Source: Actinomycetes bacterium (GTDB lineage Bacteria > Actinomycetota > Acidimicrobiia > Acidimicrobiales > Acidimicrobilacustridaceae). From it: 64,000 nt of DNA. The notes beneath the pieces are model-generated. The model saw only the letters and a list, made by a program, of their open reading frames with translations. It was not told the origin of the DNA and did no database searches. The stretch covers positions 868,001 through 932,000 of the forward strand of contig JAKOVH010000016.1 of assembly GCA_029782145.1 (NCBI GenBank), given 5' to 3'. Positions within the stretch are counted from its first letter, which is position 1. The number at the start of each line of letters is the position of its first letter. Positions 38,483 to 42,018 of this stretch are shown piece by piece. A program made the position numbers and the translations under genes.

Positions 38483-38692
38483 TCAGGCGCCCCGGAGCCG
38501 TCGCAGCCTCAGGGCCAGGACGGGGCAGGCGGCGACCGCCCGCCGGGCGTGGCCCTCGAGGTGGGCCGGCACCGGCCGGGCGTCGACGATGGGGTAGCCC
38601 CACTCGTCGAGGACGATCAACTCGGGGAGCAGCTCGGCGCACGTGCCGTGGGCGTCGCACGCGATGGGGTCGACGACCAGCTGCAGGCTCAC
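38483..38692 (-). CDS. Small [3Fe-4S]-type ferredoxin
   Basis: A 69-residue ferredoxin. Cluster ligands are Cys12, Cys18 (CDAHGTC, where the middle cysteine of a 4Fe-4S motif is absent) and Cys56 (ACPVLAL), the three-cysteine pattern of 3Fe-4S ferredoxins. The acidic first half and arginine-rich tail are usual. The GTG start overlaps the stop of the NuoF-like gene, with AGGAGG six to seven bases upstream. As last gene of the operon it is probably the electron donor or acceptor of that flavoprotein. Confidence 0.85.
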   Translation of the reverse strand: MSLQLVVDPIACDAHGTCAELLPELIVLDEWGYPIVDARPVPAHLEGHARRAVAACPVLALRLRRLRGA

Positions 38693-39978
38693 CGCCACCC
38701 TCCTGGCGCCGGCGTCGGCAGCCACGCCGGGGCCGGCGGGCAGGGCCGCCCGGCGGCGTGGGCGGCGGCGTCGGCGGCGAACACCTCGAGCGCGCTGCGC
38801 ACCATGCGCACCGCGCCGTCGGGGTGGCGGCACGCGCCGCGTCCCTCCACCTGCACGAAGAGCTGGTGCAGCCGGACGTGCGCTCGGGATGCGCCGGGCC
38901 CGCCGGCGCTGAGGTGTTCCATCGCCTCGGCCATGGCGGGGAGGCCGTGGGCACACGGCCCGCACTGCTGGGCGCCCTCACCGGCCAGCCATCGGGCGAT
39001 CCGGGCCGTCTCGGCGAGCCCGCAGTGGCCCCGCGGGAGGGCGAACACCACACCGCAGCCGAGCGAACCGCCGACCGCCCGCAGCGACGAGTGGTCCACC
39101 GCCACCGCGGCGGCGGTGGCGGGGTCGAGCCAGGTGCCGAAGTAGCCGCCCACCAGCACGCCGGCCAGCTCGGCGAGCGGCGCGCCGGCGTTGTCGAGCA
39201 GCGCGGCGAGGGGCACACCCGAGGGCACCTCGTACACACCGCCCCTCGCGGCGTGGCCGCCGACCGTGAGCAGGACGGTGCCCGGCTCGTCCGGCGTGCC
39301 GATGGCGCGGTACCACTCGGCACCGAAGCGGGCGACCAACGCCACGTGGGCCAGGGTCTCGACGTTGTCGACGAGCGTGGGCCGGCCGTCGACGCCCCGC
39401 TCGAACGGGCGCGGAGGGCTGGACGTCGGCTTGGCCTCGCCACCGTTGAGCCAGTGCACCAGCGCCGACTCCTCGCCGGCGACGTAGCGGCTCGGGACCT
39501 GTGCCACCCGGACCGCGACCGTGTCGGCCCACCGGCCCTGGCGCTCGCCGACCGCCCGTCCGACGGCGTCGACCACGTGCCGGTGACGGCGGTCGACGCA
39601 GAGGATCGCCTCACGGGCACCCACGGCGCCGGCGGCGGCCACCATGCCGTCGAGCACGAGGTGGGGCACGTGGACGAGCAGGGTCTGGTCCTTGGCGCTC
39701 GCCGGCTCGCCCTCGGTGCCGTTGGCCACCACGATCGGGCCTCGGGTGCGGGACCTCGCCGCCACCGCCGCCATCTTGACCCCCGTGGGGAACCCGGCCC
39801 CGCCCCGGCCGCGCACCCCGGCGGCCTCCACCTGCTCGACGAGCGAGCGGGTGGGCCGGGGCGGAGGCCCCAGGCGGGCGAGGTGGGCGCCCAGCGACGC
39901 GTCGGGCCGGTGCGGGATCAGCCGAGGCACCACGGTGGCGTCGGGCGGGGCGACGGTGGGGTGGGGCGGGGCGCTCAT
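38689..39978 (-). CDS. NuoF-like NAD(P)H:acceptor flavoprotein with iron-sulfur region
   Basis: A 429-residue protein of the complex I 51-kDa family. GRGGAGFPTGVKM is the FMN/NADH glycine loop, NGTEGEPASAKDQTLL the NADEGEPGxxKD-type site, an SLBB-like domain follows, and the cluster region is QQCGPCAHG plus ACRHPDGAVR. Compared with ESCGxCxPCREG of NuoF the first cysteine is alanine, leaving three ligands. No other complex I gene is near; it is coupled to a ferredoxin and a membrane cytochrome, so it likely passes electrons from NAD(P)H to these. Confidence 0.85.
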   Translation of the reverse strand: MSAPPHPTVAPPDATVVPRLIPHRPDASLGAHLARLGPPPRPTRSLVEQVEAAGVRGRGGAGFPTGVKMAAVAARSRTRGPIVVANGTEGEPASAKDQTLLVHVPHLVLDGMVAAAGAVGAREAILCVDRRHRHVVDAVGRAVGERQGRWADTVAVRVAQVPSRYVAGEESALVHWLNGGEAKPTSSPPRPFERGVDGRPTLVDNVETLAHVALVARFGAEWYRAIGTPDEPGTVLLTVGGHAARGGVYEVPSGVPLAALLDNAGAPLAELAGVLVGGYFGTWLDPATAAAVAVDHSSLRAVGGSLGCGVVFALPRGHCGLAETARIARWLAGEGAQQCGPCAHGLPAMAEAMEHLSAGGPGASRAHVRLHQLFVQVEGRGACRHPDGAVRMVRSALEVFAADAAAHAAGRPCPPAPAWLPTPAPGGWR

Positions 39979-39979
39979 G

Positions 39980-40726
39980 TCACCTCGGGACGGTGCCGGT
40001 GGTGCCGGTGGTGCCGGTGGTGGCGCCGTCGGCGCTGGCCGCCGTGGCGCCGGTCAGCAGGGAGCTCGGCGTGCCCGCCCGGCGGGCCCACCCGGCCTGG
40101 AGGGGCCCGGCGTAGGCCCATGCGACGATGGCGAGCAGCACCGCGGCGGCCGCGGCCGTGGCGGCGGTGCGGGCCGACGGGTTGCGCTGCCAGCCGGCGC
40201 CGATGCGCCAGGCCAGGGCCAGGACCATGGCGGCGAGGCACACGGCGTCGACGAGCTGCACCCAGCCGACCCGACCGTCGGTGCCGGTGCCGAGCCCGTG
40301 GACGAAGGCGAGCGGCCAGCACAGGTAGGCGCTCCAGTGCACGAGCCGCCAGGCCCGGTGAGGGATCCGCACCCGCAGGAGGCTGGTGAGCACCAGAGCC
40401 ACCACGAGGTCGAGGGCCAGCGCGCCCAGGCCGAGCCACACCGGACGGTAGGCGGAGCGCCACGGCACGACCGCGTCGAGCCAGCGGATGGGGGCGAAGC
40501 CGTCGACCACTGAGGACGCCACGTGGACGCCGAGGAACACCACCGCCAGCAGCGAGGCGTTGCGGTGGAGGTGGGTCACGACGAAGCGCTGGCCGGTGGG
40601 GCCGGACCACCGCTCGAGCTGAGCGATGCCGAGCACCATCGACACGGTGAGCAGCACCAGGGCGACCAGGCCGCTGCCCCGGGTGAGGTACCACAGCGCC
40701 TGCGAGTCGGTCACGGCGGCGGTCAT
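39980..40726 (-). CDS. Ferric-reductase-like transmembrane heme protein
   Basis: A 248-residue membrane protein with about six helices. Histidine pairs suited to bis-heme binding lie in VTHLHRNASLLAVVFLGVHV and in HRAWRLVHWSAYLCWPLAFV, on two helices, as in the ferric-reductase/YedZ/NOX transmembrane domain. There is no attached FAD/NAD domain; that role may be played by the neighbouring NuoF-like protein. The C-terminus is a Thr/Gly-rich tail. The start overlaps the apbE stop (ATGA). Confidence 0.82.
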   Translation of the reverse strand: MTAAVTDSQALWYLTRGSGLVALVLLTVSMVLGIAQLERWSGPTGQRFVVTHLHRNASLLAVVFLGVHVASSVVDGFAPIRWLDAVVPWRSAYRPVWLGLGALALDLVVALVLTSLLRVRIPHRAWRLVHWSAYLCWPLAFVHGLGTGTDGRVGWVQLVDAVCLAAMVLALAWRIGAGWQRNPSARTAATAAAAAVLLAIVAWAYAGPLQAGWARRAGTPSSLLTGATAASADGATTGTTGTTGTVPR

Positions 40727-41670
40727 GCCGCCTCCTCCTCGTCGGCCGGCCATCCGGCGACGGTCACCACGGTGCCGTCGTCGGCGACGAGGCGGGCGGG
40801 CAGGTCGCGTGCTGCCAGCCAGGCCGGGCCCTCGACGCCGAGCACGAGGGCGGCGGTGGCGGCGGCGTTGGCGCCGGCGCACGTCGCGGCGGCCACGCTG
40901 ACCGTGCGCCAGCAGGTGGCGGCCGGTGCGCCGGTGCGGGGATCGATCACGTGGTGGGCGACCGCGGCACCAGGGTGCCAGCGCCGCACCGTGGTGCTCG
41001 ACGTGGCCAGCGCGCCGGAGCCGATCGTCACCACGGGCCCGTCGGCGTGGGGGCCGGCGGCGTGGTCGTCGGTGATGCGCACGTCCCACCCACCGGGGCG
41101 GGGCGGCCCGGCCACCGCCAGGTCGCCACCGAGCGACACCAGGACCGGTCGCGCCACGGCGAGGGCGGCCGCGGCAGCGGCCCGGTCGGCGGCCCAGCCC
41201 TTGGCGGTGGCCCCGAGGTCGAGCTCCACCCCGACGGGCACGGTGACGGTGCGCAGCTCACGGTCGAGCTGCACCGACCGCCAGCCCGGCACCGCGGCCA
41301 GGTGGACGTCGAGGGCGGGCAGGTGGGGCGGCACCGACCGGAAGTCACGGTCGTAGCCCCACGCCCGCAGGGCCCCGGCCACGGTCGGGTCGACCAGGCC
41401 GTCGGTGGCCTCGGCGGCGTCGAGGGCGACGGCGAGGGCCTCGGCCAGCAGCGGCGAGACGGCCGTCGGTCGGCCCGCGGCGGCCACCACGGCGCACAGC
41501 TCGGAGTCGTCACGGAAGCGGCTGCACGCCGCGTCGACGGCGGCCAGCTCGGCGCGCACCAGCTCGAGGGCGAGGTCGGCGGCGGCGGGCCCCTCGGGGC
41601 CGGTGTCGACGACGACGTCGGCGGTCGTGCCGAGGGCACGGAACCGGCGCAGCTGCGGCTCGGCGGTCAC
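40723..41670 (-). CDS. apbE: FAD:protein FMN transferase ApbE
   Basis: A 315-residue enzyme that attaches FMN through a phosphoester to Ser/Thr of target flavoproteins. FRALGTTADVVV opens the domain, ELDLGATAKGWAADRAA is the FAD/metal-site helix, LVSLGGDLAVAG follows, and SSTTVRRWHPGA with HHVIDPRTGAPA is the conserved end with the catalytic Asp/His. There is no lipobox or signal peptide, so the enzyme appears cytoplasmic unless tethered by its neighbour. The GTG overlaps the upstream stop. No FMN_bind domain protein is encoded in the operon. Confidence 0.88.
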   Translation of the reverse strand: MTAEPQLRRFRALGTTADVVVDTGPEGPAAADLALELVRAELAAVDAACSRFRDDSELCAVVAAAGRPTAVSPLLAEALAVALDAAEATDGLVDPTVAGALRAWGYDRDFRSVPPHLPALDVHLAAVPGWRSVQLDRELRTVTVPVGVELDLGATAKGWAADRAAAAAALAVARPVLVSLGGDLAVAGPPRPGGWDVRITDDHAAGPHADGPVVTIGSGALATSSTTVRRWHPGAAVAHHVIDPRTGAPAATCWRTVSVAAATCAGANAAATAALVLGVEGPAWLAARDLPARLVADDGTVVTVAGWPADEEEAA

Positions 41671-41990
41671 GAACCACCCGAGGAGGTCGACGGCCGGCGC
41701 CTGGTGGAGCGGCTCGGCGCCCGGGCCGGCGGGGCGATGGTCGTGCTGGGGCTGGTGCGTGCGCCGCCGCGCAGGGTCGTGCTGGGCGACGGGCTCGGCA
41801 CCGTCGCGCCGCCCACCCCGCTGGTGCCCCCGCCGGTGTCCGATGCACCGGCGCCGGCGCCGTCCGACCGGTCGAGGAGCACGGCGAAGGCGCCGGCCGC
41901 CACCACGGCCCCGCCGGCCAGCCAGAGCGTGGCGCGGCGCACGACGGTCAGGCCGCGGTCTCGAGCCGAGGGGGTGGGCATCGAGCGCAT
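41667..41990 (-). CDS. Short single-pass membrane protein with Thr/Pro tail, unknown
   Basis: A 107-residue protein, first in the apbE operon. A basic N-terminus is followed by one hydrophobic segment (ATLWLAGGAVVAAGAFAVLL, about 18-37) and a long Gly/Ser/Thr/Pro linker that ends abruptly. It looks like the anchor and linker of a secreted protein whose folded domain is missing. No FMN-attachment motif (D-x3-S/T-G-A-T) is present. ATGs at 41990 and 41981 are both possible starts. Confidence 0.5.
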   Translation of the reverse strand: MRSMPTPSARDRGLTVVRRATLWLAGGAVVAAGAFAVLLDRSDGAGAGASDTGGGTSGVGGATVPSPSPSTTLRGGARTSPSTTIAPPARAPSRSTRRRPSTSSGGS

Positions 41991-42012
41991 GCTCTCGGGT
42001 GGGGGCGAGAGC
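41991..42012 (-). promoter_or_regulatory. Hairpin at the extreme 5' end of the apbE-operon mRNA
   Basis: GCTCTCG and CGAGAGC form a seven-pair stem with an eight-base loop, and the ATG at 41990 follows immediately. The promoter TACCCT (42013-42018) would start transcription about at the first stem base, so the mRNA would begin with this hairpin and have no ribosome site. Role in mRNA stability or initiation is inferred. Confidence 0.35.
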
Positions 42013-42018
42013 AGGGTA
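42013..42018 (-). promoter_or_regulatory. -10 box (TACCCT) of the apbE operon
   Basis: TACCCT on the minus strand, 22 bases before the ATG at 41990; it is the only TANNNT box suitably placed and lies in the divergent gap with the SGNH lipoprotein gene. Confidence 0.35.

Follow-up and report, generated by a model that had tools for sequence, protein, structure and literature searches.

Which protein would ApbE, the transferase that moves flavin mononucleotide (FMN) from flavin adenine dinucleotide (FAD) onto proteins, modify in an operon without an FMN_bind gene? The question is raised by five genes on the minus strand (38483-41990) of a 64,000-nucleotide (nt) stretch of DNA, referred to here as the window, from an Actinomycetes bacterium (Acidimicrobilacustridaceae; GCA_029782145.1, contig JAKOVH010000016.1) with a 98%-complete genome. 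The genes were confirmed in the order stub, apbE, cytochrome, nuoF-like and ferredoxin, and three of their junctions are 4-nt overlaps (GTGA or ATGA): the apbE start overlaps the stub stop in GTGA, the cytochrome gene begins in an ATGA overlap and the ferredoxin gene in a GTGA overlap, while the fourth junction, between cytochrome and NuoF-like genes, is a 1-nt gap. Coordinates, overlaps and Pfam matches agree with the initial annotation, which had described overlapping or nearly abutting genes of known families; four of the five are named by Pfam beyond doubt, the stub excepted. I propose this stub as the answer to the question: the operon belongs to a conserved and known, if barely described, kind, and its new element is a domain-less tail that is probably flavinylated.

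The window stub consists of a short basic N-terminus with a conserved RDxGLxxVxxxT motif, one transmembrane helix, a linker of ~60 aa rich in Ser, Thr, Pro and Gly, and the tail S-S-G-G-S; a search against Pfam and NCBIfam returned no family match. The stubs of relatives, encoded just before apbE, share the N-terminal consensus RDxGLRRVxxxTRW and a single transmembrane helix; their low-complexity linkers, some 40-150 residues long, resist alignment. A hidden Markov model (HMM) was built from the 33 N-terminal residues of 11 stubs, which excluded any information from the tail, and retrieved 38 non-redundant stubs at E<=1e-3. An exact C-terminal [ST]G[AGSQ][ST] was present in 35 of these against 0.27 on average, and never more than 3, for shuffled linkers (2000 shuffles each), figures that overstate independence, as the 11 seed stubs came from loci with tails already known and the sequences are related. 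Among the 35, the last residue was Ser in 34 and Thr in one, the third from last was Gly throughout, and the second from last was Gly or Ala in 34. A second, looser survey, in which upstream open reading frames were picked by transmembrane helix and composition only, covered 87 loci: 53 had the exact C-terminal motif, 10 further ones had it no more than 8 residues from the end, and, apart from a Cys-bracketed group taken up below, the remainder ended in SxGS, SRGS, SNAS or otherwise.

This tail resembles a known ApbE target. The residue that ApbE modifies is the final one of D-x-x-[S/T]-G-A-[S/T] (PMC12052999, PMC10722498), and a 7-residue peptide at a protein C-terminus, the Flavin-tag, suffices for the reaction (PMC12052999); reports disagree on whether the Asp of the motif matters (PMC12052999, PMC10722498). 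The window stub carries the core [S/T]-G-x-[S/T] as S-G-G-S at its C-terminus. D-x-x-[ST]-G-[AG]-S was found at the end of five relatives in total: the exact published heptamer in two Streptomyces stubs only (DSTSGAS; L144, L145), and a form with Asp and Gly, DxxSGGS or DxxTGGS, in three Micromonosporaceae stubs (L090, L100, L105). In other relatives the motif is not quite terminal, or has Thr for Ser (SGGT, SGGTSW, SGGTSTHVP, SGSTMP, SGGSGH), and this exchange and displacement suggest that the hydroxyl residue is the feature that counts.

The initial annotation had taken the first gene for the anchor and linker of an FMN_bind-type protein without its domain, which is well supported. A frameshifted or truncated FMN_bind gene was rejected, as no such domain was present in other frames and the short form is conserved. 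A search of the genome with the 33-aa stub N-terminus returned almost nothing outside the window, the query probably being too short for the coarse first pass. As separate observations, a Cys-bracketed tail around PSG (e.g. CYTTPSGSTVCY) replaces SGGS in one Acidimicrobiia clade, at L052, L053, L054, L056, L058, L109, L111, L121, L126, L133, L136, L139, L142 and L146, where a disulfide loop round the SG core is possible; and the window genome holds two more ferric-reductase-type genes (C22:297969-299539, L065, and C27:60741-61268, L066), one with its own ApbE, both again without FMN_bind and each preceded by a transmembrane-plus-linker protein, with the ends TAAS and TRAS, so that clusters of this type may carry a looser form of the tail.

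Established ApbE substrates went undetected in many of these genomes. In agreement with the initial annotation, FMN_bind (PF04205) was absent from the operon, and it was also undetected in the window genome; a target of this kind in an Rnf or Nqr complex encoded elsewhere would have spoken against a separate system, and neither such a complex nor NqrB/RnfD (PF03116) was found in the genome. Likewise, FMN_bind was not found in half of 36 other cytochrome-carrying genomes of the class, nor in Phytohabitans, Actinocatenispora, Nocardia seriolae and three mycobacterial genomes, and DUF2271, NqrB/RnfD and DUF3570 gave zero matches over the cut-off in the genomes tested, including that of the window. 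Several carriers have a single ApbE and, over the cut-off, none of these four substrate families (e.g. G283, G114, G106, G118, G231, G675, G683). Where clusters of the FMN_bind type occur, the FMN_bind gene lies directly upstream of apbE, which is the slot taken by the stub.

The ApbE proteins also divide by system. Those of stub systems had Asn at the catalytic Asp position in 82/85 cases, as did unlinked mycobacterial and Dormibacterota copies, while FMN_bind-linked ApbEs had Asp wherever the region was readable (L199, L202, L204, L205, L207 by pattern; L200, L201 by eye), and a third class, found beside a cytochrome without NuoF, had Glu (L060, L064, L065). Other active-site residues were nearly invariant (Ser224 in 83/85, His240 in 84/85). 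In two Dormibacterota, the stub lies beside an unlinked apbE, away from the cytochrome (FRE) and NuoF-like genes, and their FRE-NuoF locus yielded no candidate stub. The system is also split in the mycobacterial genomes L208-L211, with FRE-NuoF and the stub at one site and an Asn-type ApbE beside a ferredoxin gene at another; mycobacterial clusters without a linked ApbE were consequently dropped as a negative control, since their genomes hold this unlinked copy.

Features of the five-gene operon (window positions)
Feature	Position	Strand	Evidence
Gene 1, membrane stub, 107 aa	41667..41990	-	Translation; N-terminal HMM; no Pfam/NCBIfam family
Codons for C-terminal Ser-Gly-Gly-Ser, proposed FMN attachment site (last Ser)	41670..41681	-	Tail conservation
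Gene 2, ApbE-type FAD:protein FMN transferase, 315 aa	40723..41670	-	Pfam PF02424 1.2e-52; PDB ApbE matches
Gene 3, ferric-reductase/MsrQ/NOX-type membrane cytochrome, 248 aa	39980..40726	-	PF01794 (Ferric_reduct) 1.4e-8; invariant His
Gene 4, NuoF-like NAD(P)H:acceptor flavoprotein, 429 aa	38689..39978	-	PF01512 (Complex1_51K) 2e-36; PF10589 (NADH_4Fe-4S) 1.3e-12
Gene 5, small ferredoxin, 69 aa	38483..38692	-	Fer4_15 2e-12; CxxHxxC...CP motif

Initially, the gene set had been read as an electron path from NAD(P)H into or across the membrane, and this reading is well supported. The cytochrome has four heme His (H54, H68, H130, H143) that form two bis-His sites and are invariant in 24 homologues, and an extra C-terminal transmembrane helix. 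Its AlphaFold 2 model (pLDDT 84.5) resembled SpNOX, STEAP and NOX5 with a Foldseek probability of 1.00 for the top seven matches, at E no better than 0.013, and a VIA Z of 11-13 over about 150-170 residues; a Z of this size alone may occur for helical bundles, so the Pfam match and the histidines bear the argument. Taken together, they place the protein among ferric-reductase-domain cytochromes with a predicted NOX/STEAP-like fold, and heme His and modelled fold support transmembrane electron transfer. An LTGAT in its C-terminal tail was rejected as an ApbE site because relatives do not conserve it. Long-form cytochromes (L031, L033, L034, L036, L039, L049, L057) have an extra C-terminal domain of ~120 residues that is predicted to lie outside and was judged by eye to be beta-rich, and that of L031 gave no Pfam match; this domain is missing from the window cytochrome and shows no conserved S/TGxT by eye, and was rejected as an ApbE substrate.

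The closest solved structure to the NuoF-like protein is T. thermophilus Nqo1. Its 4Fe-4S site is a variant: three of the four cysteines that ligate the N3 cluster in Nqo1 are kept and invariant (C339, C342, C383), the first position is Ala336, and Cys319 is invariant besides. The protein scored 225 bits with NCBIfam nuoF (TIGR01959), below the cut-off of 559 for NuoF of complex I. The ferredoxin reads CDAHGTC...CP and is expected to hold a 3Fe-4S cluster; among solved structures it comes closest to small ferredoxins, including some from P450 systems.

The initial annotation had asked whether these genes co-occur only here, and they do not. In a class-wide search, most of the top matches to the cytochrome had genes for ApbE, a NuoF-like protein and a ferredoxin next to them. 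Scanning contigs with the NuoF-like alignment confirmed at least 586 matching stretches, and among the best 80, which were inspected for gene order, 53 had exactly ApbE, FRE, NuoF-like and ferredoxin, and others showed parts of this order. The loci span Acidimicrobiia, Streptomyces, Streptacidiphilus, Amycolatopsis, Phytohabitans, Nocardia, Solirubrobacterales and others; those of Mycobacterium, Dormibacterota and Chloroflexi are mostly FRE-NuoF with or without ferredoxin, some with ApbE. Recurrence across these taxa indicates that the operon is a real, widespread unit. It was also seen on plasmids of Cnuibacter (L196) and Rhodococcus (L197), where its neighbours include a two-component system, a DUF2231 gene and one of the VIT family; the stub on the Rhodococcus plasmid is annotated as hypothetical, and the Cnuibacter one has no listed gene. 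Near the operon at 14 loci there is a recurrent membrane protein of ~230 aa without a Pfam family (at L033:10975-11664 downstream of the ferredoxin gene), which is possibly another membrane cytochrome.

On this evidence I lean towards NAD(P)H-driven electron export with FMN held covalently on the C-terminal Ser or Thr of the stub, which would make the stub a domain-less flavoprotein. The reasons are that the tail is conserved while the linker drifts, that FMN_bind and the other known ApbE substrates were not found, that the Asn subclass of ApbE co-segregates with the stub, that in the two Dormibacterota stub and ApbE stay together at a distance from FRE-NuoF, that the five relatives approach a 7-residue tag known to be sufficient, and that the stub occupies the slot of FMN_bind. 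In the cytosol, the NuoF-like flavoprotein, with FMN and Fe-S, would oxidise NAD(P)H and hand on single electrons, which would pass from its Fe-S to the 3Fe-4S ferredoxin and then to the inner and outer b-hemes stacked in the membrane protein. At the outer face, they would reach FMN on the terminal Ser (in some cases Thr) of the S-G-G-S tail, attached by the ApbE of the operon, and the stub, as membrane anchor and flexible arm with a flavin at its tip, would deliver them to an acceptor outside the cytosol. Ferric iron may be this acceptor, a fair guess by analogy, because there is an MsrQ-like precedent and VIT-family neighbours occur on the two plasmids, while the window itself has no sign of iron. 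For the fully specified form, a natural flavin-tag in which a dedicated Asn-type ApbE places FMN on an anchored, otherwise disordered stub fed by a two-heme cytochrome, I regard the case as evenly poised.

Several points weigh against flavinylation of the tail, in addition to the relatedness of the stubs behind the shuffle figures. The window tail departs from the full heptamer by Gly for Ala and by the absence of an Asp six residues ahead of the attachment residue. Mycobacteria and some others have SRGS, SNAS, TKGS or SAGS, and about a dozen loci of the 87, from the Acidimicrobiia clade with the Cys-bracketed tail (L052-L054, L056 and L058 among its loci), end in C...PSGxx..C, partly overlapping with the class at most 8 residues from the end; its member G235 has a single ApbE, and FMN_bind was not found in it. 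The window ApbE has Asn268 at the position of the catalytic Asp285 of V. cholerae ApbE, and with Asn at an otherwise conserved catalytic position, activity is not assured. Finally, none of 71 ApbEs had a hydrophobic segment at the N-terminus (a crude test, without SignalP) and the stub tail is predicted to lie outside (topology read from the positive-inside pattern), so flavinylation would have to come before export.

The same Asn in 82/85 enzymes speaks for the alternative that the stub is an adaptor or scaffold, with a tail that docks unmodified on ApbE or the cytochrome, and an Asn-type ApbE that binds flavin or hydrolyses FAD to supply free FMN. Some ApbEs are indeed FAD hydrolases (PMC12052999), the tail is almost always exactly C-terminal, as for a docking peptide with a free carboxylate, and divergent tails retain the [GA]-S end and not the preceding Gly. 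I nevertheless consider docking unlikely, if well short of negligible, given that the motif is retained when it is not terminal and when Thr stands for Ser (L039, L048, L104, L110, L114, L045), that Ser224 and His240 are nearly invariant, and that five relatives end in D-x-x-[ST]-G-[AG]-S.

Improbable, to my mind, is that the operon is a known MsrQ-like iron reductase, in which the cytochrome gives up its electrons directly or through free flavin, with ApbE and stub residual or kept for a substrate elsewhere that family models missed. A flavinylation survey links MsrQ-like clusters with iron uptake (PMC8238504), VIT-family genes adjoin the operon on both plasmids, and some FRE-NuoF clusters have neither ApbE nor stub (L195, L198); against this, the pairing of ApbE with the stub, often with translational coupling, is conserved across phyla, and the tail persists in genomes with one ApbE and none of the four known substrate families. 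The G-rich window codons TCG GGT GGT TCG TGA, which overlap the GTG start, could raise the suspicion that the SGGS tail arises as a side effect of the ribosome-binding site of apbE and of the overlap between the apbE start and the preceding stop. This explanation is largely refuted and strikes me as highly improbable: A, Q and S occur as third-position residues, both Ser codon families are used, the other coupled genes of the window operon lack such a tail, and the tail is retained at loci where apbE does not come next or lies further off (L083, L122, L104, L092, L138, L140), the former being the case at L083, L122, L104, L138 and L140.

Should FMN indeed sit on the stub, this would explain at least some of the orphan apbE genes of Actinomycetota, Chloroflexi and Dormibacterota. 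The survey reports that ~4% of genomes kept apbE without a recognised substrate and that substrates remain to be found (PMC8238504); domain searches can easily overlook a short, low-complexity 'hypothetical' protein whose conserved tail is four residues long. The Asp/Asn split of ApbE provides a simple sequence marker separating FMN_bind from stub systems.

Among the nearest known systems are the NuoF-type 'MsrQ-like' flavinylation clusters, of which that survey briefly described 31 (Meheust et al., 2021; PMC8238504). The term 'undescribed redox system' in the initial annotation was thus too strong for the operon, while the conserved flavinylation-like tail, which it had missed, does appear undescribed: searches of open-licence papers found neither such a stub nor a flavinylated C-terminal tail described. 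The window operon shares with these clusters a PF01794 cytochrome encoded no more than five genes from apbE, a PF10589 protein resembling NuoF as the proposed NAD(P)H oxidase and a mainly actinobacterial distribution. It differs in having no FMN_bind gene, whereas MsrQ-like clusters typically include a gene with an FMN-binding domain, and in an ApbE that has Asn in place of the catalytic Asp and apparently no signal peptide; the 3Fe-4S-type ferredoxin and the domain-less tailed stub go unmentioned in the consulted passages of the survey. The survey filtered for a signal peptide or lipidation site on the ApbE, FMN_bind, DUF2271 or DUF3570 protein, and this filter, together with the ApbE N-termini found here, may explain why so few clusters were counted.

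Among the components, the NuoF-like protein has the FMN- and NADH-binding fold and 4Fe-4S domain of complex I NuoF/Nqo1, whereas one N3 Cys is Ala and the operon lacks NuoE, NuoG and a membrane arm. The cytochrome has the predicted fold and the four conserved His of STEAP, SpNOX and NOX5, but no fused FAD/NAD(P)H domain. The stub resembles FMN_bind proteins of the NqrC/RnfG/PplA type in its membrane anchor, flexible linker and gene position, but has only a tetrapeptide core in place of their folded domain. With the engineered Flavin-tag (Tong et al., 2021; PMC12052999), it shares a short C-terminal peptide ending in Ser or Thr, offered to ApbE on an unrelated protein, while the stub is natural and membrane-tethered, mostly has Gly for Ala and usually lacks the leading Asp. 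Flavinylation would make it a flavoprotein that lacks a flavin-binding fold, and the natural counterpart of that tag.

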